From Pseudomonadota bacterium (GTDB taxonomy: Bacteria > Pseudomonadota > Gammaproteobacteria > Burkholderiales > Rhodocyclaceae), in contig JAGTRW010000021.1 in NCBI GenBank assembly GCA_018262095.1, positions 1-64,000 of the forward strand: a stretch of DNA of 64,000 bases, given 5' to 3'. Made by a program: the position numbers and the translations under genes. Of the stretch, positions 51,817 through 64,000 are shown piece by piece (the stretch's first letter is position 1; the number at the start of each line of letters is the position of its first letter). The notes under the pieces were generated by a model, which made no database searches, was not told where the DNA came from, and saw only the letters and a list, made by a program, of their open reading frames with translations.

Positions 51817-52395
51817 ATGAGTGCTGAAGACTATTTACGTTTGCTTTGTGCCGGGGGGCTGGCCGCCGAACGCGGTCTGAAGGGGCTATTCGATCTCTAC
51901 GCGGCACGCCTCAAGGGTTTCTTTCGGCGTCAGGGCTGCAACGACGAAGATGCCGCCGATCTGTTGCAGGAGACCTTCGTCAAGGTCGTCCGCGCCGCGT
52001 CGTCATTCCGCTTCGATTCTCAGGCCAGCACCTGGATCTGGTCGATTGCCCGCAACTGTCTTAACGATCGCTGGCGGTCGCGGCACGACGCCGAGTCGCT
52101 CGACGCCATGAAGGAGTCCGACGGCGACGCCTGGGAGCTCTCGCTGGGGTCAAGCGAGCCGCAGCACGAGCTGCTCGAAATGAAGAACTGCGTGCGCCAG
52201 GCTTTCGTCGAATTCGCCGAACGTCATCCCGATCACGCGCAGGCGACCGTGCTGGCAGCCGTCGAGGGGTGGACCATGGACGAGCTGGCGCAAACCCTGG
52301 GGCGGACGGTCGGCGCGACGCGCGAATTCGTCTCGCAGTGCCGCAAGAAGCTGCGCCCCTATCTGGAACGTTGCCGTGAACTGCTGCCGGTCTGA
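51817..52395 (+). CDS. ECF-type RNA polymerase sigma factor
   Basis: 192 residues. Region 2 (FDLYAARLKGFFRRQGC, DAADLLQETFVKVVR, ASTWIWSIARNCLNDRWRSR) and region 4 (QATVLAAVEGWTMDELAQTLG, GATREFVSQCRKKLRPYLE) are clear. The start is uncertain: ATG 51817 lacks a ribosome site, while an in-frame TTG at 51766 has one. It heads the island and is followed after 12 bases by a membrane protein in the anti-sigma position, so it likely drives the island promoter. Confidence 0.9.
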   Translation: MSAEDYLRLLCAGGLAAERGLKGLFDLYAARLKGFFRRQGCNDEDAADLLQETFVKVVRAASSFRFDSQASTWIWSIARNCLNDRWRSRHDAESLDAMKESDGDAWELSLGSSEPQHELLEMKNCVRQAFVEFAERHPDHAQATVLAAVEGWTMDELAQTLGRTVGATREFVSQCRKKLRPYLERCRELLPV

Positions 52396-52407
52396 GACGA
52401 GCGCGCG

Positions 52408-53001
52408 ATGAGCAAAATTCCCGAAAAAACCGACGAGGATGGCGACACGCGCTGGTTTGACGCGCTGAGCGGACGCTTGGCGGCGGCTGACGACCAGTCG
52501 CCGGCCGCCGACGAGGGAAGAACGCTGCGCCAAGCCTTGCTTTCGCTCGACCGGGAAGAGGCGGCCAGCGAGCAGCTCGACGCGGATTGGCAGCGTCTGC
52601 GTTTTCGCCTGCGCCGCGAAGGTCTGGTCGGCCAGCGCCGCCCGCTCGTCTATTGGGCCTTGGCCGCCTCGCTCTGCCTCGCCGTCGGCCTCGCCTGGTT
52701 CGGCGCGAACAATCCGCTCGAGCAGCCGGAAAGCCAGCTGCTGCGCGGCGCGCAGGCGACCACGGTCGTGCTGCGCGTGGCCGATCCGGGCGCCGCCGCC
52801 GAGCGTCTGATCACGCTCTGCCGCGACGCGGGGATCGCTGTTCGCCGGCGCGATAGCAGCGATCGCGGCGACGGGACGGTGCTGCTCGATCTGGTCGTTC
52901 CGGCGCAGCTTCCTGCCGCGCTGGCCGATGTTTTCAAGGATTATGGCAGCGCGCCGCCGCCGGCCGGCAAGGTGACGCTGGTGTTGATGGATTCGCGCTA
53001 A
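52408..53001 (+). CDS. Single-helix membrane protein, probable anti-sigma factor
   Basis: 197 residues. A cytoplasmic helical N-terminus (residues 1-80), one membrane helix at about 82-98 (YWALAASLCLAVGLAWFG) and a C-terminal extracytoplasmic domain of about 95 residues (TTVVLRVADPGAAAERLITLC..., LVVPAQLPAALADVFKDYG). No zinc-binding HxxxCxxC anti-sigma motif is present. The position directly after the ECF gene and the topology suggest a membrane anti-sigma factor whose outer domain senses a signal. This is inference. Confidence 0.7.
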   Translation: MSKIPEKTDEDGDTRWFDALSGRLAAADDQSPAADEGRTLRQALLSLDREEAASEQLDADWQRLRFRLRREGLVGQRRPLVYWALAASLCLAVGLAWFGANNPLEQPESQLLRGAQATTVVLRVADPGAAAERLITLCRDAGIAVRRRDSSDRGDGTVLLDLVVPAQLPAALADVFKDYGSAPPPAGKVTLVLMDSR

Positions 53002-53039
53002 AGGCGTTGGGCAAGCTTAATGACCAAAAGGATATCGAC

Positions 53040-55172
53040 TTGAAGATTCCGAAACGTTCGCCGAAATTTCTGTGCTGCGCTGTCCTGGGCGCCGCGCTGG
53101 CCCAGCTCGCCGTTGCCGAAAATCATGCGCTGCTGATCGGCGTCTCGAATTACCCCGCGCTCGACAAGAGCCTGCAGCTCGAAGGGCCGGCCAATGACGT
53201 GCAGTTGATGCGCGACCTGCTCAAGACGAGCGGTTTCGCCGAGTCGCATATCCGCGTGCTCGCCGATAATGTTGCCGGCGCAGCCGCACAGCCGACGCGC
53301 GCGGCCATCCTCGGCGAACTGAGCGGCCTGGCCAACCAGGCCAAGAAAGGCGATTTCGTCTATCTGCAGTTCGGCGGTCACGGCACGCAGCAGCCTTCGC
53401 GACCGGGCAAGGTGCCGGTTGAAGCCGACGGACTCGACGAGCTGTTCCTGCCGCGCGACGTTGGCAAGTGGGACGGCGACGTCGGATCGGTCAAGAACGC
53501 GCTGGTCGACGAGGAGCTGGGGCAGGCCATCAGCTCGATTCGTGCCAAGGGCGCTTTTGTCTGGGCGGTCTTTGACAGCTGCCATTCGGGCAACGTCACG
53601 CGCGGCGGCGCTGGTCGCGACGGTGTGCGCGAGCGCCGCGCCAGCCCGCGGGCGCTCGGCGTTCCGCAGCAGGCGCTCGACGCCGCGCAGGCGGCTTCGA
53701 TAAAGACGCGCGGCGGCGCGGCGGCGAGCGGCGAGGGCGGCGCGCTCAAAAGCGGCGCGCAGCAGGACGGGATGGGCGGCTTCGTCTATTTCTACGCCGC
53801 GCAGTCGAACGAAACGGCGCCCGAAATGCGCCTGCCTGACGGCGCCGCCGATCGCAAGCCCTACGGCGTGTTCACCTTTTCGCTGGCGCAAGTGATCGCG
53901 GCCAACCCCGGGATTTCGTATCGCCAGGCCGGCGAACGCGTGCTGCAACTCTACGCGGCGCGCAATACGCGCAACCCGACGCCCTTGTTCGAAGGGTCGG
54001 GGCTCGATGCGCCGCTCTTTGGGCAGCAGCCGGGTGACGTCGTTCGCCAATGGAAAGTGAGCGCCAAGGACGGCGAATTCGAGATTTCGGCAGGGGCCTT
54101 GCAGCAGTTCGGCGAGGGCGCCGTCTTTGCCGTCTTTCCGAACGCTGCAGCCAAGTCAGCCGAGACGATCGGAACGCTCGTCGCGCGCCAGGTCGAGGTC
54201 ACGCGCAGCACGCTGACGGCGCAGGCCCGCGACGGTAAACCGGCGCTCAAGGCCGAGAGTCTGCCACGCGACGCGACGGTACGGCTGGTCGATCCGGCGC
54301 TCAAGCTCTCGCTGCGCGTCGCGCTACCGGTCGACTTGCCGCCCGGCAATATCGCCAAAGTGCTCGACAAGCTCAAAGCGACGCCCGCTGCCGGGCTCGT
54401 CATCGACTGGGTCGCTGCCGGAGAAGCTGCCGACCTGCGCCTGGCGGTCGCCGATCAACGGCTCTGGCTGTTGCCGCCCGACGGCGCCTGGATCAGGACG
54501 GGGCCGGCAAAGACGCCGTCGATCGGTCTCGACAAATCGATCGACGAGTTGCAGCAGGTGCTCGGCGGCACCTTGCAGAAAGTCGCCAAGGTGAGCAACC
54601 TCACCCGCCTTTCGGGGCAGATGCTGTCCGGCCGCATCGCGACGAAACTCGACCTGAGCGTCGAGGTCGTTCGTTCGGCGACCGGAAAGAAGGAGGAGAT
54701 CGCCGGCGCGACGATTCCTCTGCTTGCCGCCGGCGACAAATTGCGCTTCGTGATCCGCAACAATCACTCGCAGCCGGTCGACCTGACGCTGCTTGGCGTC
54801 GATAGCCTCTACGGCATCGCTGCGCTCTATCCCTTGCCCAACGAGGTCAACCGGCTCAATCCGCGCGACGTGCTGACGATCCCAGCGGCCAACGAGGCGC
54901 CGATCGAGCTCGACGGCCAGACCGAAGGGCAGGAAAGCATCGTGCTGATCGCGGTCGAGGCCAAACCGGCAAGCCCGACGTCGGACCTGCGCTTCCTCGA
55001 GCAGGAAGGCGTTCTGCGCGAACGCGGCGGCGCGGCCGGCGCTTCGACGATCGAAAGCCTGTTTGCCGACGCGCGCGACGGCGGTCAGCGAACGCGCGGC
55101 GCGATGCGCGGCGCGGCGCTCGACAGCACGACCATGCGCATCTTCAGCTATCGGGCGCAGGCCAAGCAGTGA
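53040..55172 (+). CDS. Exported caspase-like (peptidase C14) protein with C-terminal regulatory half
   Basis: 710 residues. A TTG start at 53040 follows AAGGA and begins a signal peptide (MKIPKRSPKFLCCAVLGAALAQLAVA). The caspase-like domain follows: ALLIGVSNYP, catalytic His 114 in FGGHGTQ, catalytic Cys 181 in VFDSCHSGN. The C-terminal ~400 residues are beta-rich and resemble the DUF4384-type extension found after such domains (LRFVIRNNHSQPVDL, GIAALYPLPNEVN). Located in the periplasm or membrane-associated. Cleavage specificity is unknown. It sits in a gene array with a second caspase. Confidence 0.87.
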   Translation: MKIPKRSPKFLCCAVLGAALAQLAVAENHALLIGVSNYPALDKSLQLEGPANDVQLMRDLLKTSGFAESHIRVLADNVAGAAAQPTRAAILGELSGLANQAKKGDFVYLQFGGHGTQQPSRPGKVPVEADGLDELFLPRDVGKWDGDVGSVKNALVDEELGQAISSIRAKGAFVWAVFDSCHSGNVTRGGAGRDGVRERRASPRALGVPQQALDAAQAASIKTRGGAAASGEGGALKSGAQQDGMGGFVYFYAAQSNETAPEMRLPDGAADRKPYGVFTFSLAQVIAANPGISYRQAGERVLQLYAARNTRNPTPLFEGSGLDAPLFGQQPGDVVRQWKVSAKDGEFEISAGALQQFGEGAVFAVFPNAAAKSAETIGTLVARQVEVTRSTLTAQARDGKPALKAESLPRDATVRLVDPALKLSLRVALPVDLPPGNIAKVLDKLKATPAAGLVIDWVAAGEAADLRLAVADQRLWLLPPDGAWIRTGPAKTPSIGLDKSIDELQQVLGGTLQKVAKVSNLTRLSGQMLSGRIATKLDLSVEVVRSATGKKEEIAGATIPLLAAGDKLRFVIRNNHSQPVDLTLLGVDSLYGIAALYPLPNEVNRLNPRDVLTIPAANEAPIELDGQTEGQESIVLIAVEAKPASPTSDLRFLEQEGVLRERGGAAGASTIESLFADARDGGQRTRGAMRGAALDSTTMRIFSYRAQAKQ

Positions 55173-55260
55173 TGAGACATGCTGCCGATCTTGCTGCGCC
55201 TCTCCGGCTCGCCGATGGTCGCGTCCCAACGACCGCCAGCGGCAGAGTGGAAACCTTGCG

Positions 55261-57450
55261 TTGAAAACCCGTTTTTTGCGCTGGCTCGACGACTGGCCTG
55301 GCCGCACGCTGTTGGCGACGCTGCTCCTGCTGTCGTTCGCCCACGCGCTGGCCTTGTGGGGCTTCTCGCTGGGTTTGCCGGCCGCGCCCTGGGGCGACGA
55401 GGCGCGTCATTGGGAACGCATCGTGTCCGAGGCGCTGCGCCTCGTCTGGCAACCCTGGCAGGCTCCGGCGCCGGACGCCGCGTGGCCGGCGCCGCTCGGG
55501 CGGCTGGTCGTTCCACTGGCCTTGTTCTGGCTTGGCGTCGAAGCGGCGGCGGTTGCCTTGCGTCGTCATTTACGCCGCCTGCTCGTCGCGCGTCGCGGCG
55601 GACACGCGGTAGTGCTCGGTTGCTGTCCAGTCTCGCTGGAACTGGTTGCGGCCTGGCGGGGCGACGGCCGGCCGGTGCTGGTGCTGGCCGAGGACGATGG
55701 CGCGCGCGGCATCGTGCTGCACGCCGGCGCGGCGCATCTGTCAGGACATTGGAGCGACGAGCGTGCCTTGCGGCAAAGCGGCTTGGCGGGCGCCGAGATC
55801 GTCGCCTGCATCGCCGGCAGCGACAACGCCAACATCGACGCGGCAATCGGCCTGGCGCGCGTGGTCGGCGCGCAGCGCGACCGCTCCTTGCCGCCGCTGC
55901 AGTTGCTCGTCCACGTTGCCGACCCTTTCCTGCGCGCCAGCATCGACGCGCAGATCGACCGCTTTGCGGCGCGCGAAGTCGTCGAGCTGCGTTTCTTCTC
56001 GGCGGCGCAGATCGCCGCACGACGCCTGCTGCGCGATTTTCCGCTCGACTTCTGGCAGGCGCCGAGTGAACCGCGGCTGTGGATCTTTGGCCTGACGCCG
56101 CTTGCCGAGGAACTGGCGCTCGCCGCGTTGCGCCTCGGCGTCTACCGTCAAGCGCGCCCGCCGGCGATGGCGCTGGTCGGTCCCGACGCCGAGCGATTTC
56201 GCGATTCGCTGCTGGCGCGTTGGCCCGGCGCCTGCGCGGTCGGACGGTTGGCCTTCGTCGCGGCGCCGATTGAACTCGGCGACCTCGCGCTCGAGCAGCT
56301 GCAGGCGCAGCTCGGCGAACCGAGCGGGATCTATTTTTGCCACCACGACGACAACGCCAATCTGGCGGCAGCCTTGCATCTGCAGCATGCGTTCGCCGCC
56401 AAAGACCGGGTGCTGCCACCTTTGTACCTGCATTCGGTACAGCCGGGGCGCCACGACCTGCGCAGCGAACTGGGTGGCCACCCGTGGTTTCATCATTTCG
56501 GTGGCGCCGCCCAAATCGCCGCTGAAATCCTGCTCGGCGAGAAACTCGATGCGATGGCGGTGCGAATCCACGAGCACTACGTCAGCGAATCGCTCGAAAA
56601 CGGCGAGCTTCTCGGCGCGCGTCGCTCGCTGCAGCATTGGCCGCTGCTGCCCGAAGACCTCAAGGACGACAACCGCTTTGTCGCCGACCACCATTTCGTC
56701 AAGGTGCGCGACAGCGCTTGCGCGCTGGTCAGCGGGTCTGGCGTGCCGGGCAGCCGGCCGTGGGACGAGGCGACGATCGAAGCGCTGGCGCGCGTCGAGC
56801 ACGAACGCTGGATGATCCAGCGCCGGCTTACCGGCTGGCAGCAGGCGCCGTTGCGCGACGATGTGGCCAAGCGCCATCCCGACCTCGTCGCCTGGGAGGA
56901 CCTCGGCGAGAGCCGGCGCGAACTCGATCGGAACGTCGTGCGCCAGGTTCCCGAGCTCTTTGCCGAGCTGGGTCTGTCGTTGTGCCGCCAGCAGCGCGTC
57001 CTGGTGCGTGGATCGCGCACCCCGTGGGCGTTTCCCGAAGCCTTCGAGCTGGCGGTCGATGGCCTGCTGGCCGAGGTATGCACAGCGCCGCCCGCAGCCG
57101 TCGTGTTCTGGATCGGCCTCGACAGCGCCTTCGTCTGGCGCGTCGCCGAACGCCTGCTCGCCGCGCAGTGCGGGCGCTTGGGAATCGTCATCGATGAACC
57201 GCTGCAGCGCGTTCTCGATCGACTGCCGAGCGCGGAAATCAGGTCGCGGGTGCTGAGCTTGCTGCGCCAGGCCGTCGGCGTGATTCGTCTGCCGCCGCAG
57301 GCGTCGGCCGCCGACTTCCTGTGTCCGGACACGGTGATCGAACTTTCAATCGACGGCAGCGATCTGCCGCGGCAGGGAATCGACTGGATGATCGATGCCG
57401 CCGGTCGCGTGCTGATTCGACCGCAACGCTGTGCAGGAGACGACCGATGA
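55261..57450 (+). CDS. Membrane protein with TrkA-N-like and RyR domains
   Basis: 729 residues from a TTG at 55261. Two membrane helices at about 14-38 and 82-98 resemble a small ion-channel-like or anchor module. A Rossmann-like TrkA-N region follows (GGHAVVLGCCPVSLELV, VLAEDDG, VACIAGSDNANI) and a second similar segment near residue 280 (LWIFGLTPLAEELAL). A RyR (ryanodine-receptor-type) domain spans about 505-575 (EHERWMIQRRLTGWQQ, KRHPDLVAWEDL, LDRNVVRQVP). The C-terminal ~150 residues look like another nucleotide-binding fold. The product may sense a nucleotide or NAD-derived ligand. It overlaps the next gene by four bases. Confidence 0.8.
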   Translation: MKTRFLRWLDDWPGRTLLATLLLLSFAHALALWGFSLGLPAAPWGDEARHWERIVSEALRLVWQPWQAPAPDAAWPAPLGRLVVPLALFWLGVEAAAVALRRHLRRLLVARRGGHAVVLGCCPVSLELVAAWRGDGRPVLVLAEDDGARGIVLHAGAAHLSGHWSDERALRQSGLAGAEIVACIAGSDNANIDAAIGLARVVGAQRDRSLPPLQLLVHVADPFLRASIDAQIDRFAAREVVELRFFSAAQIAARRLLRDFPLDFWQAPSEPRLWIFGLTPLAEELALAALRLGVYRQARPPAMALVGPDAERFRDSLLARWPGACAVGRLAFVAAPIELGDLALEQLQAQLGEPSGIYFCHHDDNANLAAALHLQHAFAAKDRVLPPLYLHSVQPGRHDLRSELGGHPWFHHFGGAAQIAAEILLGEKLDAMAVRIHEHYVSESLENGELLGARRSLQHWPLLPEDLKDDNRFVADHHFVKVRDSACALVSGSGVPGSRPWDEATIEALARVEHERWMIQRRLTGWQQAPLRDDVAKRHPDLVAWEDLGESRRELDRNVVRQVPELFAELGLSLCRQQRVLVRGSRTPWAFPEAFELAVDGLLAEVCTAPPAAVVFWIGLDSAFVWRVAERLLAAQCGRLGIVIDEPLQRVLDRLPSAEIRSRVLSLLRQAVGVIRLPPQASAADFLCPDTVIELSIDGSDLPRQGIDWMIDAAGRVLIRPQRCAGDDR

Positions 57451-59045
57451 ACAAGCTTCTCGTCTTAAGCTTGTTGCTTGCCGCCAGGCTGGTCTGCGCG
57501 CAGACGCCGATGGCCGAGCGTCAGGCCGTTCGCGCCGCGGTCGCGGTCGATAGCGAGCGCAAGATCGCGTTGGTGATCGGCAACGGCGCTTACCGCAGCC
57601 AGCCGCTGCCCAACCCGCCGCTCGACGCCAAGGCGATGAGCGCGGCGCTGCAGAAACTCGGCTTCGAGACGACTTCGCTGGTCGACGCCGACCGCCTGAC
57701 GATGGTTCGCGGGCTCGAGAATTTCCGCGGCAAGCTCAAGGGGGCCAACGTCGCGCTGGTTTATTTCGCCGGCCATGGCATCCAGATGGAAGGGCAGAAT
57801 TATCTGATTCCGGTCGATGCCGACATGGAGCACGAAGACTCGGTGAAGTACAACACGGTGAGTCAGCAAAACGTCCTCGACGAACTCGAACGCGGCGGAA
57901 CGCCGATCAAGATCGTCATCCTCGACGCCTGCCGCAACAACCCCTTTGAGCGCGGACGCGGCAATTCGGGCGGGCTCGCGGCGGCCAGCAATGCGGCACA
58001 GGGAACGCTGATCGCCTACGCCACGTCGCCGGGACGCGTCGCGCTCGACGGGCGTGCCGGCGAGAACGGCCTCTATACGACGCATCTTTTGCGCGCCTTG
58101 CAGACGCCGGGGCTGGGCATCGAGGAAGTGTTCAAGGCGACCCGCGTCAGCGTCGCCGAGGCCAGCCGCGGACGGCAAATCCCCTGGGAGACGACGTCGT
58201 TGACCGGCAACCTGACACTTTTGCCCGGCACACCGTCTACCCAGCACGAGGCATCGGTGGCGACGGCTTCGCTGGCCGTTGCCGGGGCGGCGCGTTCGGC
58301 CGGTCGTAGCGCTACGGTCGGATCGGTTTTCCGCGATTGTCCGCGTTGTCCCGAGATGTCGATCGTTCCGGCCGGGCGCTTCGTGATCGGATCGCCGGTG
58401 AGCGAAAGCGAACGTCAGGCCGGCGAGGGGCCGCAAAAATCGGTGACTATCGCCAGGCCGCTGGCGGTTGGGAGGTTTGAAGTGACTTTCGAAGAATGGG
58501 AAGCATGCCTGCTCGATGGCGGTTGCGACCGTTGGCCCAACGACCGCGGCTGGGGACGCGGCCGGCGGCCGGTGATCGACGTCAGTTGGGAAGACGCGCA
58601 GCGCTATGTCGGCTGGCTTTCGCGCAAAACGCAGCGCAGCTATCGACTGCTTTCTGAGGCCGAATGGGAGTACGCGGCGCGTGCCGGAACGACGAGCGCG
58701 CGGCCGTGGGGCGATGCGCTCGGTGCCCGGCAAGCGGTTTGCCGCGACTGCGCGACGCCCGGCAAGGGAACGCAGGAAGCCGGGACGACGCCGGCCAACG
58801 CCTGGCAGCTGCACGACATGCTCGGCAATGTCTGGGAGTGGACTGCCGACTGCCAGAACAGCGGGCCAGCTTCGATTCCCGACAACGGCTCGGCCAACGC
58901 GCTCGGCGATTGTTCGCGGCGCGCCATTCGCGGCGGTTCCTGGGATAGCGCGGCGAAGGCCGTGCGTTCGGCGACGCGCGCCTTCTATCCGCTGAGCCGG
59001 CGCGAGGACAATATCGGTTTTCGCGTCGCCGCCGAGGTCGACTGA
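57447..59045 (+). CDS. Exported caspase-like protease fused to an FGE/sulfatase-modifying-factor domain
   Basis: 532 residues. Signal peptide MNKLLVLSLLLAARLVCAQ. Caspase-like domain about 38-260: IALVIGNGAYR, catalytic His 110 in YFAGHGIQ, catalytic Cys 162 in ILDACRNNPF. FGE-like domain about 292-530: EMSIVPAGRFVIGSP, LLSEAEWEYAARAG, MLGNVWEWTADC and IRGGSWDSAAKAV. FGE-like domains in such fusions act as substrate-binding or adaptor modules rather than oxidases. It is coupled by ATGA to the RyR gene and overlaps the next gene by one base. Confidence 0.92.
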   Translation: MNKLLVLSLLLAARLVCAQTPMAERQAVRAAVAVDSERKIALVIGNGAYRSQPLPNPPLDAKAMSAALQKLGFETTSLVDADRLTMVRGLENFRGKLKGANVALVYFAGHGIQMEGQNYLIPVDADMEHEDSVKYNTVSQQNVLDELERGGTPIKIVILDACRNNPFERGRGNSGGLAAASNAAQGTLIAYATSPGRVALDGRAGENGLYTTHLLRALQTPGLGIEEVFKATRVSVAEASRGRQIPWETTSLTGNLTLLPGTPSTQHEASVATASLAVAGAARSAGRSATVGSVFRDCPRCPEMSIVPAGRFVIGSPVSESERQAGEGPQKSVTIARPLAVGRFEVTFEEWEACLLDGGCDRWPNDRGWGRGRRPVIDVSWEDAQRYVGWLSRKTQRSYRLLSEAEWEYAARAGTTSARPWGDALGARQAVCRDCATPGKGTQEAGTTPANAWQLHDMLGNVWEWTADCQNSGPASIPDNGSANALGDCSRRAIRGGSWDSAAKAVRSATRAFYPLSRREDNIGFRVAAEVD

Positions 59046-60478
59046 TGCGCGACGAACCTTCATGTACAGCAGACGGGAGTCAATTGAACACGCCCAACGA
59101 AACGACGATTCCGCCGGCGCTGGCCACGCTCGCAGCGCGCCTGGGGGCTGGCCGCCAGCCCTTGTATCGCGCGCTGGCCTACGTGCTGGCGTTGGCCGTC
59201 GCGGTGAGCGTGTCGCTGGTCGCCGTCGTCGGCTGTTTCGCTGCCGATCAGGCGGCGCGCAACGAACGATTGACGCGCGAAATCTCGTCGCTTGACCGGC
59301 AGCTCGGCGAACTGAAGCAGATCAAGGAGGTCTTGCAAATTAGCCTGGCGAAGATGCGCAGCATCGCGCAGTTGCAGCAGGGACGCAATTGGCCGGTGCT
59401 CGACCTCGGCGCGCTGTCGCGTGCGATTCCCCAAGGACTCCGGCTCGTCGAAATGGGCGTCGACGGCGGCACGCTGGTGCTGCGCGGCGAGGCTTCGTCG
59501 GCGGCGCGCGTTGCCGCGCTGATCAGAAATCTCGACGAGGCCCATTTCGGCAGCGTCAGACTGGTGCGCCTGGAAGCGGCGAGCGCTGGTGGAAATCGCG
59601 AAGGCGCCGTCGTCTTTGTCGTCGACATGACGCGCCGGCCTGTCGTGCCAGAGGCTTCGCCGGCGGCGACTGCGGCTGCCGCGGCGGCGCCATCGGCGGC
59701 GCCGCCTGACGATGAATCGCCTGGCGCGATCAGCGTGACGCTGATCGCCGCGCTGCTGGCCGGGTGCGCCGTGCTCTGGCGTTACCGCCGGGGTCGCCGG
59801 GCTGGCGCGGTGGCGACGCGCGAATGCGCTGCGGGCAGGCTGCTGTCGTCGCTTGCGCGCGTCGATTACGCTGATCCTGAGCGCTGGCCGCTCGCCGTTC
59901 GCCTCTTCTTTCTCGCTGAGGTCCTGGTGCTGGCGCTGGCCGCCGCCTGGTGGATCGTCGTGCTTCCGCAAATCGACGCGCTGCGCGAACAGGAGCAGGC
60001 GGAAAGCAGGCTCAAGGACGAATTCGTCGCCAAGACGAGGCAGCTTGCCGGCCGCGCGCTTTATTCGCAGCAGTTAAAAGAAGTCGACCAGGGTTTTGCG
60101 GCGCGCTTGAAACTACTCCCAGGCAGTTTCGACGACGCGAGTTTGTTGATCGAACTCAATCAGTCGGTGCTCGGGCGCGGCCTTTCGCTGCGGCGCATCA
60201 ATCCGGTCGGCGAAGTGACGATCGGCGATTCGTACGCGACCCAGTCGTGGGCGGTCGAGCTGACCGGCGATTTCAACGATCTCGGCGCCTTCCTGGCCGA
60301 CGTGGGCAAGCTCGGACGCCTGGTGACTTTCCCGAAGTACCGTCTGTCGACCGCGACGCGCGGCGATTCGGCCGTGCTTTTCGACGCAACGCTGGAAGTC
60401 TACCGCGAGCTGAGCGTCGATGAAGCGGCGCAGCAAAGGCGGGCGGCGCTAAAAAGCGCGACGAAGGAGGCGAGCTAG
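59045..60478 (+). CDS. PilN-PilO fusion protein (type IV pilus alignment-complex-like)
   Basis: 477 residues. The first ~190 residues resemble PilN: one membrane helix (LALAVAVSVSLVAVVGCFA, about 48-66), a coiled coil, then LDLGALSRAIPQGLRLVEM and ARVAALIRNLDEAHFG. An Ala/Pro linker and another hydrophobic segment (about 228-245) follow. The second half resembles PilO: membrane helix FFLAEVLVLALAAAWWIVVL, coiled coil, LLIELNQSVLGRGLSLRRI, AVELTGDFNDLGAFLADVG and YRLSTATRGDSAVLFDATLEVY. PilN and PilO are normally separate proteins that hetero-dimerise. An in-frame TTG at 59083 with GGGAG is an alternative start. No pilM or pilQ is present. Confidence 0.85.
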   Translation: MRDEPSCTADGSQLNTPNETTIPPALATLAARLGAGRQPLYRALAYVLALAVAVSVSLVAVVGCFAADQAARNERLTREISSLDRQLGELKQIKEVLQISLAKMRSIAQLQQGRNWPVLDLGALSRAIPQGLRLVEMGVDGGTLVLRGEASSAARVAALIRNLDEAHFGSVRLVRLEAASAGGNREGAVVFVVDMTRRPVVPEASPAATAAAAAAPSAAPPDDESPGAISVTLIAALLAGCAVLWRYRRGRRAGAVATRECAAGRLLSSLARVDYADPERWPLAVRLFFLAEVLVLALAAAWWIVVLPQIDALREQEQAESRLKDEFVAKTRQLAGRALYSQQLKEVDQGFAARLKLLPGSFDDASLLIELNQSVLGRGLSLRRINPVGEVTIGDSYATQSWAVELTGDFNDLGAFLADVGKLGRLVTFPKYRLSTATRGDSAVLFDATLEVYRELSVDEAAQQRRAALKSATKEAS

Positions 60479-60480
60479 CC

Positions 60481-60753
60481 ATGCAGCCACAAGACAAACG
60501 CTGGTATCTCGGCCTCGGCGCCACCGCGCTCATCGTCTGCCTGCTCGCTAGCGCGGCGCTCGGCGCGTATCTGCTGGCGACGCTCGAGCGCGGCGAGATC
60601 GACGCGTGGATGCGGTCGGTCGGCGGCGAATTGGTCGCCAGGGTCGAGCCGCTTCCCGAAACACGTGCGGCGCCGCAGCTTGGTTTCGTCGCTGCCGGAC
60701 AATCGCCGTTTGCCCCCGAACTGCTGCGCTCGCCGCGCCAGAGCAGCCGGTGA
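60481..60753 (+). CDS. Truncated PilP-like peptide
   Basis: 90 residues. A membrane helix at about 11-32 replaces the lipoprotein signal. The segment IDAWMRSVGGELVARVEPLPE and AAGQSPFAPELL matches the linear N-terminal region of PilP (pattern of a W/M helix, VEPLP and a closing SPF/DPF). The beta domain of PilP that binds the secretin is missing. That region binds the PilN/PilO pair in pili, so it probably binds the fusion protein encoded two bases upstream. The stop overlaps the GTG start of the next gene. Confidence 0.75.
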   Translation: MQPQDKRWYLGLGATALIVCLLASAALGAYLLATLERGEIDAWMRSVGGELVARVEPLPETRAAPQLGFVAAGQSPFAPELLRSPRQSSR

Positions 60754-62768
60754 GTATCGCGCTTTTCCACCCCGTGCTAGTGCGGCGTGTCGTCGGTCGA
60801 TGGCCGACGCCAGCGGTCGTCGCCTTGCTGCTCGTTCGCGTCGCGCTGCACGGTGTTCTGGCGTGGCTCGTCTGGCTCGCCGGCGAGAACTTTTGGGCGC
60901 CGCTCAGCGCGCTCTGCGGCGGCGTGCTGCCAGCGTTCGTTTTCGCACTGTTGGCGTTCGGCGCGGCGTGGCGCGCGGTGCGCGGCCTGCCGTGGCAAAG
61001 ACAGTGGCGTGTTGCCGAGTTTCCTGACGCGCGGCCAATGACGCGCGGCGAAATCGCCTGGCGGCTGCTCTGGCCGACGACGCCGTGGCGGCTATTGACG
61101 CTGCCGGCCTCGCTCGACGACTGGTGGTGCGTCGAAACGGCAGCCGGACGATCGTATCTTTGCTGCCCGCCAGTCGATGCGCCGTCGGCGCGCGATGGCT
61201 GCGCGCCTTTCGCCTTCGTCTTTCCCTGGCAACTCGAAGTGGCGCTCGCTCTGGCGCTGCTTTTCGAACGCAGCTTGACGCTGCTGCTGATTCCTTACGC
61301 CGTGGCGCGAATCGGCTGGATCATCAGGTGCCGGCGGCGGCAAGCGCAGTGGCGTCGAGTCCGCCTCGACGCGGCGAATGATCTCGCGCCGGCTGATCGT
61401 TCACGCGTCGGCGACCGGCTGTTTGCCGAGCTGAGCTGGCTGCTGTTGCGCGCACCGCAGCTGCGGCGCTGCCGCGACGTTTCAGCGAGCGTTCGCCGCT
61501 GCGGGCAAGCGATCGCCCGCGGCGCGACCTGGCTGTTGCTCGGCTTGCCGGTGCGGATCGGCCAGGCGCTGGCGCTTGCCGCGAGCCTGTGGCGAACGCT
61601 GCTGCTGACGCTGGTCGGGTGGGCGGCGGCGCTGCTGATTGCCTTGCCGCTGAGCCTGCTTTTTGCCGATCCGCAGTCGCCCGTGTGGCGCGAGGAGCCG
61701 CTGGTGCGCGCCGTGCTCTGGCGTTACGGGGCCGACGACGCGGCGCGGCAGGCGACGGCGATGCTCGAAAAGGCACAGGCCGCCAACGATACTGCGGCGA
61801 CGCAGGCGGTGTTGCGCGGTGGCGCCGTCGACGGCGTATTTCGCCTGCTCGGCTGGCAGTCCGATCGCCGCCGGGCGATGAATTGCCGCGATGCGGTCGC
61901 CTCGACGCCCGGCGTCACGCTGCAGCTCGACGAACAGCTCGACCTCGCGCAGCTTTTGCGCGAAGTTGCGTGCGTCAGCGACGGTACCCATCTGCAGCCA
62001 GCCTTGCTGGCGCCGGCCTTCGCTCGCGCCGGCGGAAGTCTGCCGATCGCCGCTGCCGTGGCGAGCGGCGAACCGGCGCTGCTGCCGCTGGCGATCGACG
62101 GCGACGATGGGCTTGCGACGCGCGATTGGCAGGGGCGAACGCCCTTGCTGCTGGCGCTCGACTTGGCGGCGACCGACGGCGAGCGCCGCGCCGGCTATCT
62201 GGCGATCGCCGCGGCGCTCACCGCGCGCGGCGCCGACCGCTCGGCGATCGATCACGGCGGGCGCAGTGCCGCGTACCTGGCGGCGCAGGCCGGTCTTGAC
62301 GGCGACCGCCTAACGCCTTACCTGCGTGCCGCCGATGTCAGGGCGCGCAGCGCGCTGGGCGCGACTCTGGTGCATGCCGCCGCGGCGAGCGGCGAGCTTT
62401 CGACGCTGGCCGACGTCGTTCAGGCCGGTGCCGACGTTGGGCAACGCACGCGCGACGGGCGCAGCGCTCTGCATTTCGCACGCGGCGCGGCAATGGTCGA
62501 GGCGCTGTTTTTGCGCGGTTTCGACCCCGACCTGCGCGACGCGCGCGGTCGCCTGCCGCTGCACGCCGCGATCCTCGCCGGCGACGGCGACGCTGCGCTG
62601 GCGCTGCTCGCCGTCACGCTGGCGCCGCAGTCGGCCGACGTCTTCGGCCGCGCGCCGGCGGACTATCTGGCGGCGCGCAACGCCGGCGGCAAAACGACGA
62701 GCGCCGACGATCGACGCTGGAACGAGCTGGCCTGGCAACTTGCCGAGAGAACGAGGAATGCACGCTGA
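60750..62768 (+). CDS. Multi-helix membrane protein with C-terminal ankyrin repeats
   Basis: 672 residues from a GTG that overlaps the previous stop (GTGA). The N-terminal ~310 residues hold several membrane helices (VVALLLVRVALHGVLAWLVW, VLPAFVFALLAFGAAW, VALALALLFERSLTLLLI, LLLTLVGWAAALLIALPL). From about 430 ankyrin-like repeats follow (DWQGRTPLLLALDLAA, HGGRSAAYLAAQAG, ATLVHAAAASGELSTL, RDGRSALHFARGAAMVEALFLRG, RGRLPLHAAILAGDGDAAL). The repeats are probably cytoplasmic and bind a partner of the system. It overlaps the next gene by 11 bases. Confidence 0.85.
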   Translation: MSIALFHPVLVRRVVGRWPTPAVVALLLVRVALHGVLAWLVWLAGENFWAPLSALCGGVLPAFVFALLAFGAAWRAVRGLPWQRQWRVAEFPDARPMTRGEIAWRLLWPTTPWRLLTLPASLDDWWCVETAAGRSYLCCPPVDAPSARDGCAPFAFVFPWQLEVALALALLFERSLTLLLIPYAVARIGWIIRCRRRQAQWRRVRLDAANDLAPADRSRVGDRLFAELSWLLLRAPQLRRCRDVSASVRRCGQAIARGATWLLLGLPVRIGQALALAASLWRTLLLTLVGWAAALLIALPLSLLFADPQSPVWREEPLVRAVLWRYGADDAARQATAMLEKAQAANDTAATQAVLRGGAVDGVFRLLGWQSDRRRAMNCRDAVASTPGVTLQLDEQLDLAQLLREVACVSDGTHLQPALLAPAFARAGGSLPIAAAVASGEPALLPLAIDGDDGLATRDWQGRTPLLLALDLAATDGERRAGYLAIAAALTARGADRSAIDHGGRSAAYLAAQAGLDGDRLTPYLRAADVRARSALGATLVHAAAASGELSTLADVVQAGADVGQRTRDGRSALHFARGAAMVEALFLRGFDPDLRDARGRLPLHAAILAGDGDAALALLAVTLAPQSADVFGRAPADYLAARNAGGKTTSADDRRWNELAWQLAERTRNAR

Positions 62769-64000
62769 ACTAGATCTGGATGATTTCTGGGAGGACTTCC
62801 TGTCCTCAGTCGAAGAACGGCGGGTGATTCCGATCATCGGCCCGGAGCTGCTGCAGGTGCGCGTCGGCGGCGAGCCGCTACCGCTCTACCGCGTCGTCGC
62901 CGAACGGCTGGCCGACAAGCTGCGCGTCGACATGGGCGAGGCGCCGCCGCAGTGGGGGCTCGACGACGTCGTCTGTCGCTATCTGCAAGGCCGCGGGCGG
63001 CGCGAGGAACTCTATCCGCGGATTCGCGCGATCATGAAGGAGCTGCTCACCGAAGTCGAACTTCCCGACGCGCTGCTCAAGCTGGCGCGCATTTCCGCCT
63101 TCGACGTCTATCTGTCGCTGACCTGCGACAACCTGCTGGCCAGTGCGATCGATCGCGAACGCTTCGCCGGCGCCGAGCGTACGCAGCAGATCGCCTACGC
63201 GCCGAACAAGATCGCTGACCTGCCCGTGACGCGCGACGAGCTCAAGACGCCGGTGGTCTACTCGCTGCTCGGCAAGCTCTCGGTGGCGCCCGATTACGTG
63301 ATCACCGAGGAGGATCTGCTCGAGTTCCTGTGCGCGCTGCAAAGCGACGCCAAGCGTCCGCACCTGCTGTTCGACGCGCTGCAAGCCAGCCACCTGCTGT
63401 TCCTCGGCTGCAGCTTTCCCGACTGGCTGGCGCGCTTTTTCATCCGCATCGCCAAGAGCCGGCAACTGTCGCAGCAGCGCGGCGAATCCGAGCTGATCGT
63501 CAATCCGCGGGTGGCGTCCGAGCCGCAGCTGGTCCTTTTTCTCGAAAACTTCAGCTACGGTACGCGCATCCTGTCGATGGAGCCGCTGGCGTTCATCGAC
63601 GAGCTGGCGCGCCGCTGGCAAGCGCGCCATCCGCCGGTGGCCGCGGTTTCTGCTGCGCCGAGCGCCGAGCCTGACGATGGCGAGGCGCTGCCCGACCTGC
63701 CGGCCGGCGGGATCTTCATCTCCTACGCCAAGGAGGACGTCGACGCGGTGATCCGCCTGCATGATGCGCTCGAGGAACTCGGACTCGACGTCTGGTTCGA
63801 CCGCCAGCGCCTCGAAGCGGGCGATTCGTACGATCGCAAGATCCGCAACAACATCAAGGCCTGCTCGCTGTTCGTCGCGGTCGTCTCGCGCAACACCGAG
63901 CGACGGCTCGAAGGCTATTTCCGGCGCGAGTGGAAGCTCGCCGAAGAACGCGCGTGGAGCATCGCCGACGGCGTTCCCTTCATCTTGCCGGTGGTCATCG
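62758..64000 (+). CDS. SIR2-like/TIR-domain protein, C-terminus off the window
   Basis: At least 414 residues; the gene runs past the window end. Residues about 8-285 resemble a SIR2_2-type domain (VIPIIGPELL, VYLSLTCDNLLASAID, HLLFLGCSFPDWLARFF). The histidine usually seen in the LHG motif is replaced (VVYSLLGKL, about 166-174). A linker follows, then a TIR domain from about 317 (GGIFISYAKED, LDVWFDRQRLEAGDSYD, LFVAVVSRNT, YFRREWKLAEER with a Glu at the usual catalytic place). TIR and SIR2 domains consume NAD in anti-phage systems. The ATG follows an AACGAGGA ribosome site. The TIR is probably the active part. Confidence 0.88.
   Translation, partial: MHAELDLDDFWEDFLSSVEERRVIPIIGPELLQVRVGGEPLPLYRVVAERLADKLRVDMGEAPPQWGLDDVVCRYLQGRGRREELYPRIRAIMKELLTEVELPDALLKLARISAFDVYLSLTCDNLLASAIDRERFAGAERTQQIAYAPNKIADLPVTRDELKTPVVYSLLGKLSVAPDYVITEEDLLEFLCALQSDAKRPHLLFDALQASHLLFLGCSFPDWLARFFIRIAKSRQLSQQRGESELIVNPRVASEPQLVLFLENFSYGTRILSMEPLAFIDELARRWQARHPPVAAVSAAPSAEPDDGEALPDLPAGGIFISYAKEDVDAVIRLHDALEELGLDVWFDRQRLEAGDSYDRKIRNNIKACSLFVAVVSRNTERRLEGYFRREWKLAEERAWSIADGVPFILPVVI

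Follow-up and report, generated by a model that had tools for sequence, protein, structure and literature searches.

A candidate conflict operon combining caspases, a ryanodine-receptor-domain membrane protein and a SIR2-TIR protein in a Rhodocyclaceae bacterium

Results

We analyzed a 64,000-nucleotide stretch of a Rhodocyclaceae genome (contig JAGTRW010000021.1, positions 1 to 64,000, hereafter the window; G000:C73:1-64000 in an assembly of 4.8 Mb in 82 contigs), in which nine open frames follow one another on the plus strand from 51817 to 64152. A first-pass annotation had described this row as a candidate new conflict system comprising an extracytoplasmic function (ECF) sigma factor, a membrane protein in anti-sigma position, a caspase, a TrkA-N/RyR protein, a caspase-FGE protein, a PilN-PilO fusion, a mini-PilP, a membrane-ankyrin protein and a SIR2-TIR protein. 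All nine were confirmed as open frames, and Pfam supports the ECF sigma factor, caspase C14, RyR, FGE with C14, PilN and PilO in a single frame, ankyrin, and TIR_2 with SIR2_2. With the starts chosen here, neighbors overlap by 1 to 11 bases from 57.4 kb on, with one 2-base gap. We tentatively read the array as a possible cell-defence operon of the abortive-infection type, in which a TIR domain would supply the signal and caspases the execution.

The first gene encodes a 192-residue ECF-type sigma factor (51817..52395; Sigma70_r2 E 6e-13; NCBIfam TIGR02937 62.6 bits, cut-off 42.9). Twelve bases downstream lies the gene for a 197-residue membrane protein (52408..53001) with hydrophobic segments at residues 80-98 and, more weakly, 158-176; zero Pfam families exceeded the cut-off for this protein, which probably has one transmembrane segment and a periplasmic C-terminal part. 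These are followed by casp1, a metacaspase-like C14 protease (53040..55172; Peptidase_C14 E 1.5e-19; PDB metacaspases E 4e-11), and by an inner-membrane TrkA-RyR protein (55261..57450; RyR E 8.8e-11) with two hydrophobic segments, a TrkA-N/RCK region and a RyR domain. The starts of both genes are uncertain because each lacks a good ATG; casp1 may begin at TTG 53040 or 53007. The fifth gene encodes a MALT1-like caspase fused to an FGE-sulfatase/PvdO-like domain (57447..59045; C14 E 1.2e-38, FGE E 5.8e-45, with further matches to MALT1 at E 7.2e-15 and PvdO at E 1.3e-44). A PilN-PilO fusion with three hydrophobic segments (59045..60478; PilN E 1.4e-9, PilO E 1.9e-20) precedes a 90-residue mini-PilP (60481..60753), which consists of a hydrophobic segment and a PilP-like N-terminal stretch and lacks the C-terminal domain. 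The row continues with a polytopic membrane protein that has several hydrophobic segments and C-terminal ankyrin repeats (60750..62768; Ank_2 E 6.4e-12) and a SIR2-like-TIR protein (62758..64152, cut at 64000 by the window end; likely start ATG 62758; 462 residues counted from 62764; TIR_2 E 2.9e-19, SIR2_2 E 2.9e-10).

Contig C73 ends at 66565. JAGDMU010000019.1, from the metagenome-assembled genome (MAG) CTSoil_042, is identical to C73 over 20.5 kb and extends further; we counted it as the same organism as the window and never as an independent case. Extension beyond 64000, a check suggested in the first-pass annotation, revealed that the array runs past SIR2-TIR through five more genes (L084:2808-9397), giving 14 in total, to window-equivalent ~70738, where it ends beside a convergent frame. 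These encode an nSTAND1-WD40 protein (1288 residues, from 64149, outside the window; nSTAND1 E 2.2e-29), a prepilin (N_methyl E 1.3e-7), pilX, a protein of 231 residues that has a single hydrophobic segment and matches nothing in Pfam, a PilC/GspF-like platform protein (T2SSF E 4.4e-27) and a second pilin (Pilin E 2.3e-12, N_methyl E 2.2e-9). The nSTAND frame is broken in C73, which is missing about 150 bp present in JAGDMU010000019.1; the frame is open there, ruling out the break as a genuine gene feature. In the window's own assembly, a 100% identical PilC-like gene lies on C53 together with a WD40-caspase gene, in agreement with the gene order of JAGDMU010000019.1. The WD40-caspase, with WD40 repeats and a C-terminal caspase domain, is encoded convergently just downstream of the operon (L084:11297-14938, equivalent to G000:C53, L003) and brings the C14 matches in the genome to three. 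Between 51300 and 64000, a scan for sigma-70-type promoters, which does not cover ECF promoters, retrieved no match, and 9 terminator-like sites were observed where 12.6 were expected from shuffles.

The TIR domain of the window protein matches PF13676 with 70.2 bits (cut-off 28) and the PADLOC ThsB models weakly (best E 1.7e-8). Matches to SIR2-TIR were found in 33 of 148 relatives including the window's own genome, mostly to TIR alone; full-length relatives were limited to one in G076 and two in G103. A phylum sample of 309 genomes searched at E 1e-15 contained full-length SIR2-TIR in G103 and G558 besides the window organism. An nSTAND1 gene directly follows SIR2-TIR in 5/5 copies, and the four others are 37-42% identical to the window nSTAND. 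The initial label of a SIR2/TIR NADase should be narrowed to its TIR part. In the SIR2 part, the columns that we take to be those of the catalytic Asn and the H-G His carry T/S/T/T/T and L or F, respectively, across the five copies. Because both residues are replaced, this part is probably not an NADase, and we rejected it as an active enzyme; NADase activity, if present, would rest on TIR alone.

The RyR part of the TrkA-N/RyR assignment was borne out by PF02026 RyR (R12) at 42.4 bits (cut-off 27.4), and the TrkA_N part reached only 18.9 bits against a cut-off of 23.8. A profile of 21 TrkA-RyR proteins matched animal ryanodine receptors (E 1.3e-37) and PDB 1id1, annotated as a "putative potassium channel protein" (E 4.1e-13). 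Given these matches, the family looks like RCK-gated-type proteins with two transmembrane segments to which a RyR domain has been added. Cyclic ADP-ribose (cADPR), the ligand of the phage RyR-domain protein RyDEP, is contacted by H75, W78, H100 and D117 according to a 2026 preprint (PMC13232231). The window domain has H522, W525, H547 and D564 (numbering from 55237) at identical spacing; among 34 aligned sequences including that of the window, the four positions are kept in 34, 34, 28 and 32, respectively.

Among 147 other relatives we found no full-length close TrkA-RyR; G060 has a diverged version of 601 residues and two more have a RyR domain only. As a single-protein query, the window TrkA-RyR had no plasmid and no viral-contig matches, its Sphingobium counterpart had two partial plasmid matches, and the protein from viral contig L224 had three partial phage matches. 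One member, in an Oscillospiraceae MAG (L080:8951-13196), is an RyR-RCK protein with the TVGYGD filter of potassium channels, encoded directly before a TIR gene, and is a candidate RyR-gated potassium channel; the TVGYGD loop was absent in the other 28 aligned sequences (eight sequences lie outside that alignment).

One profile scan of genome contigs, based on a four-sequence RyR alignment, yielded 35 RyR loci. These stretches were searched with a TIR profile of five sequences (window, L049, L060, L010 and L224; of the loci with a match, L048, L049 and L060 contributed to the profile), and 21 of the 35 contained a match. The match in L074 was discounted, as it overlaps the RyR frame on the opposite strand, leaving 20 that include the window organism and 12 Sphingomonadales loci representing one syntenic locus. 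Pfam confirmed TIR_2 in 10/10 proteins tested. A TIR gene directly adjoins the RyR gene in L079, L080, L081 (where RyR scores slightly under the Pfam cut-off) and L082, is the next long gene on the opposite strand in G060, and lies 2.8 kb away in L077 and 4.1 kb away in L075. By record title, loci with an adjoining TIR gene belong to Bacteroidota, Bacillota, Verrucomicrobiota, Actinomycetota and Pseudomonadota. The simplest arrangement is on viral contig IMGVR_UViG_3300044796_000664 (L224:1183-4242), where a bare pair of TIR and TrkA-RyR genes stands about 33 bases apart among genes judged phage-like by eye. In the window, the caspase-FGE, PilNO, mini-PilP and ankyrin genes separate TrkA-RyR from SIR2-TIR, all on the same strand.

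Two C14 genes, detected with a profile built from the window, L049 and L060 sequences, accompany RyR in 14 of the 35 loci (the window organism, Magnetococcales L049 and 12 Sphingomonadales) and partially in L058. In L049, the same locus as G530/L042, caspase 1, TrkA-RyR and caspase-FGE occur in the window's order with identities of 37.5%, 32% and 37%, together with a convergent TIR-nSTAND1-WD40 gene. The Sphingomonadales loci carry a TIR and a caspase gene on one strand and, divergently, genes for a secreted-looking protein, a caspase-FGE, a barrel-like protein (no match in L054), a papain-family protein and TrkA-RyR. Twelve of the 14 loci with a Sphingomonadales record title are complete; L053 and L058 are interrupted by contig ends, as is a further MAG locus, L064. 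We treat the 12 as one syntenic locus and not as 12 independent events. Each of 13 genomes searched from Sphingomonadales and Magnetococcales has 1 to 5 TIR_2 matches.

The array could instead be a mosaic, made up of a module of caspases and RyR, the SIR2-TIR/nSTAND1 defence pair and a stray fragment of a pilus, all gathered behind one promoter with no mechanism in common, as might be expected from modules that are found apart elsewhere and from a whole array present in one organism only. We regard this as unlikely, given that RyR, two caspases and TIR occur together in the Magnetococcales and in the 12 Sphingomonadales loci and that the window genes from 57.4 kb on overlap or lie 2 bases apart. 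Lack of a conserved neighborhood in relatives, named in the first-pass annotation as an outcome that would refute the proposal, is what we observed for the whole array (147 relatives, no close full-length TrkA-RyR; no other PilN-PilO fusion among the matches listed). Four sub-modules do recur: sigma/anti-sigma/caspase, two caspases with TrkA-RyR, TIR with RyR, and SIR2-TIR with nSTAND1. The recurrence of caspase, TIR, nSTAND1 and RyR pieces in distant bacteria, and the viral TIR/RyR pair, support the original proposal of a candidate conflict system.

Casp1 keeps its putative His/Cys dyad (H104/C171, numbering from 53070) in 10/10 aligned sequences. Its N terminus and that of caspase-FGE apparently direct export, being signal-peptide-like by eye, as are those of both caspases in L060 and of caspase 1 in L049. 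Casp1 matches occur in 28 of 148 relatives including the window's own genome, most covering the catalytic part only and those in G034 and G104 nearly the whole length, and in 38 of 398 genomes of a phylum sample, again including its own; nearly full-length proteins in that sample are those of G433, G430, G530, G697, G722, G674 and G528. In G034, G104 and G433, full-length casp1 has genes for a sigma factor and for a protein with one transmembrane segment beside it; shorter caspases have the same kinds of neighbors in G370 and at a further locus of G104, making five triads in four genomes besides the window. These support the proposed tie between the sigma switch and a secreted caspase and, together with the hydrophobic segment, the anti-sigma position of the 197-residue protein, for which no Pfam family speaks.

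Across the six anti-sigma proteins, that of the window among them, one Trp is shared near the N terminus and another before the transmembrane segment. Shortly after the segment, 6/6 have an Arg (with a one-column shift) followed by G, D or S. Orthocaspases cleave after basic residues according to PMC6426788, and the window caspases are metacaspase- and MALT1-like; the Arg is therefore a candidate caspase cut site, one chosen after the fact.

Other caspase matches in relatives were rejected as the same system, as 13 of 20 stretches show a different arrangement. In those 13 of the 20 same-family or same-order stretches (L121-L140), crude gene calls place a gene of 1733-2083 residues near a mostly short caspase. 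In four genomes, casp1 relatives are preceded by genes for small secreted-looking proteins (L174:9279-10668, L176:8012-8806, L177:10317-10946 and L116:12088-12771), which share, by eye, a DPLxLxxAA stretch and may be substrates or partners. In G430 (L175:6286-11573), a zinc-finger anti-sigma-like and a sigma-like protein, also recognized by eye and unlike those of the window, are encoded beside casp1, possibly another sigma/caspase pairing. Casp1 relatives are present in 98 plasmid records, 54 of which have at least 80% query cover and 46 of which are from Pseudosulfitobacter. On two Pseudosulfitobacter plasmids (L225, NZ_CP085162.1; L226, CP069022.1), a relative with 38% identity over 95% cover lies near a HAMP kinase/response regulator, trypsin, patatin and a second caspase; on NZ_CP085162.1 this caspase cluster is close to replication and partition genes.

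The triads and plasmids are also where an envelope-stress regulon would find its evidence. Under that explanation, to which we assign a minority chance, the ECF pair controls exported proteases for damaged envelope proteins, TrkA-RyR reads NAD or ADP-ribose, and TIR is a mere adaptor. No frame around the G034, G104 and G433 triads matches the window TIR or RyR (blastp 1e-4), and the Pseudosulfitobacter plasmids pair the casp1 relative with a kinase/response regulator and further hydrolases of the kind listed above, both as this explanation would have it. It leaves unexplained the repeated TIR and RyR neighbors, the bare pair on the viral contig and the SIR2-TIR/nSTAND1 unit.

The pilus-like genes have ordinary counterparts in the same genome, where an intact housekeeping PilM-N-O-P-Q operon is located on C54. 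The PilO half of the fusion is 36% identical to the organism's own PilO and up to 42% identical to PilO of a same-genus genome. Counting its own genome in both samples, PilN or PilO was matched in 130 of 148 relatives and in 208 of 274 genomes of the class, and no other PilN-PilO fusion was among the matches listed in either. Of those listed, two others span most of both halves, in G147 and G093; they are interrupted by in-frame stops and proved on inspection to be ordinary operons in which pilN and pilO are separate genes. The mini-PilP label lacks a Pfam match and is upheld by alignment to the N-terminal ~46 residues of the organism's own PilP, with a score reached by 4 of 2000 shuffles for the whole protein and 3 of 5000 for the soluble part.

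One could place these genes at the center, as an alternative pilus or secretion device whose pilins are processed or displayed at the surface by the caspases, since PilN-PilO, the PilP-like stub, PilC and two prepilins occupy one run. We consider this improbable. Inner-membrane PilN/PilO, PilC and prepilins are present by Pfam, and a secretin (PilQ), PilM and a motor/extension ATPase have zero Pfam matches among the 14 genes; the housekeeping operon is intact; and a phmmer search of the 35 RyR loci with PilNO and PilC (pilins not searched) matched only the window's own PilNO. We take the pilus part as a lineage-specific addition.

Discussion

From the gene content, order, domains, conserved residues and recurring sub-modules described above, we infer the following functional steps. 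The nSTAND1-WD40/SIR2-TIR pair would sense an invader, upon which TIR would convert NAD+ to cADPR, with the SIR2 part as a dead, probably regulatory domain. The cADPR may enter the RyR pocket of the two-segment TrkA-RyR protein, which would relay the signal across the inner membrane. The two apparently exported caspases would then be activated and attack envelope proteins, and might also cleave the anti-sigma protein near its juxtamembrane Arg; the freed ECF sigma factor could transcribe the operon in a feed-forward loop. The PilN-PilO/mini-PilP/PilC/pilin set would form a secretin-free, pilus-like inner-membrane platform, perhaps an anchor or a bait for pilus phages.

Our confidence differs among these parts. 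We are fairly sure that this is a conflict-type locus, and we lean towards the TIR product being read by RyR. For the caspases as periplasmic executioners, the balance tips slightly the other way. Release of the sigma factor by a caspase is doubtful, and a pilus serving as bait is very unlikely. Taken as a whole, the chain in which TIR-made cADPR gates the RyR membrane protein and an outward signal fires periplasmic caspases, with sigma self-amplification and a pilus-like scaffold, is unlikely.

Several observations weigh against a TIR-signalled, caspase-executed operon. The full gene combination was found solely in the window organism, in two assemblies. A usable TIR match is absent from the fetched stretch in 15 of 35 RyR loci, three of which end at contig ends beside RyR and several others of which are short. 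No window-like sigma factor was found at E 1e-4 near casp1 in the stretches from six of nine genomes with full-length casp1 (G430, G530, G697, G722, G674 and G528). Export of the caspases, though apparent, was read from N termini by eye. Of the candidate catalytic Glu residues in the TIR domain, that of the R-E-W/R motif is invariant in 5/5 copies and the one four residues on varies. The RyR domain keeps the RyDEP catalytic pair H75/D117 and could hydrolyze the signal instead of reading it; by analogy with RyDEP and its sponge relatives, TrkA-RyR could be a brake that hydrolyzes or buffers the signal instead of a switch. Finally, as the phmmer search of the RyR loci already indicates, the pilus part showed no conserved link to the other genes, and this is the weakest piece of the reading.

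If the proposed pathway is correct, it would be an inside-out death pathway using the same partners, cADPR and a RyR domain, that are linked in animal calcium signaling. Were TrkA-RyR a receptor, it would connect bacterial immunity with the cADPR/RyR partnership of animals, and caspase execution would be located in the periplasm. Two arrangements are of a size suited to direct testing: the bare TIR and RyR pair of L224 and the compact loci of Sphingobium.

The statement that no described system has this combination was checked against titles and abstract starts of the open-licence literature, where no description of it was found, nor any that pairs TrkA-RyR with TIR or caspase. PADLOC matched caspase, ankyrin-type and TIR models only and gave no name to sigma, anti-sigma, TrkA-RyR, PilNO, nSTAND or PilC. 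A word search of the available text of PMC7159879 retrieved no mention of RyR, PilN, pilus, sigma factor or ankyrin. Neither a MoxR ATPase nor a vWA protein, the components of MoxR-vWA ternary conflict systems, was matched by Pfam among the 14 genes (for the nSTAND protein, among the best 25 of 43 families).

Several pairings within the array are already known from earlier reports: a TIR with a caspase-like protease (PMC12847820), caspases with ECF sigma factors and nSTAND1 (PMC8195603), and FGE on caspases (PMC3501461). With the type IV pilus PilM-N-O-P-Q and PilC set, the array has in common PilN, PilO, a PilP-like stub, PilC and prepilins; it differs in that PilN and PilO are fused, PilP is shortened, and PilM, PilQ and the ATPase were not found among the 14 genes. 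The EACC1/EACC2 caspase conflict systems, many of which are described as including an ECF sigma gene and for which nSTAND1 is also named (PMC8195603), share the theme of caspase plus ECF sigma factor. However, the EACC1 model NF047832 gives 36.1 and 63.4 bits for the window against a cut-off of 140, the window caspases look exported, and RyR and pilus genes are present.

Phages are reported to encode RyR-domain proteins that either bind TIR-made cADPR or destroy it (PMC13232231). RyDEP belongs to the same PF02026 RyR family and agrees with the window domain in all four ligand residues and in their spacing. It serves the phage as a counter-defence enzyme, and its relatives are sponges; the RyR domain described here is bacterial and forms part of a membrane protein encoded with TIR. 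In type IV Thoeris, TIR-made N7-cADPR activates a caspase-like protease, according to PMC12847820. Both systems encode a TIR and a caspase together, here in a putative operon with four genes between TrkA-RyR and SIR2-TIR, and the passage from nucleotide signal to protease is the logic that we propose here. The window array differs in that its caspases look exported, the receptor role would fall to a separate membrane protein, TrkA-RyR, and a sigma pair, nSTAND1, FGE and pilus genes are added.

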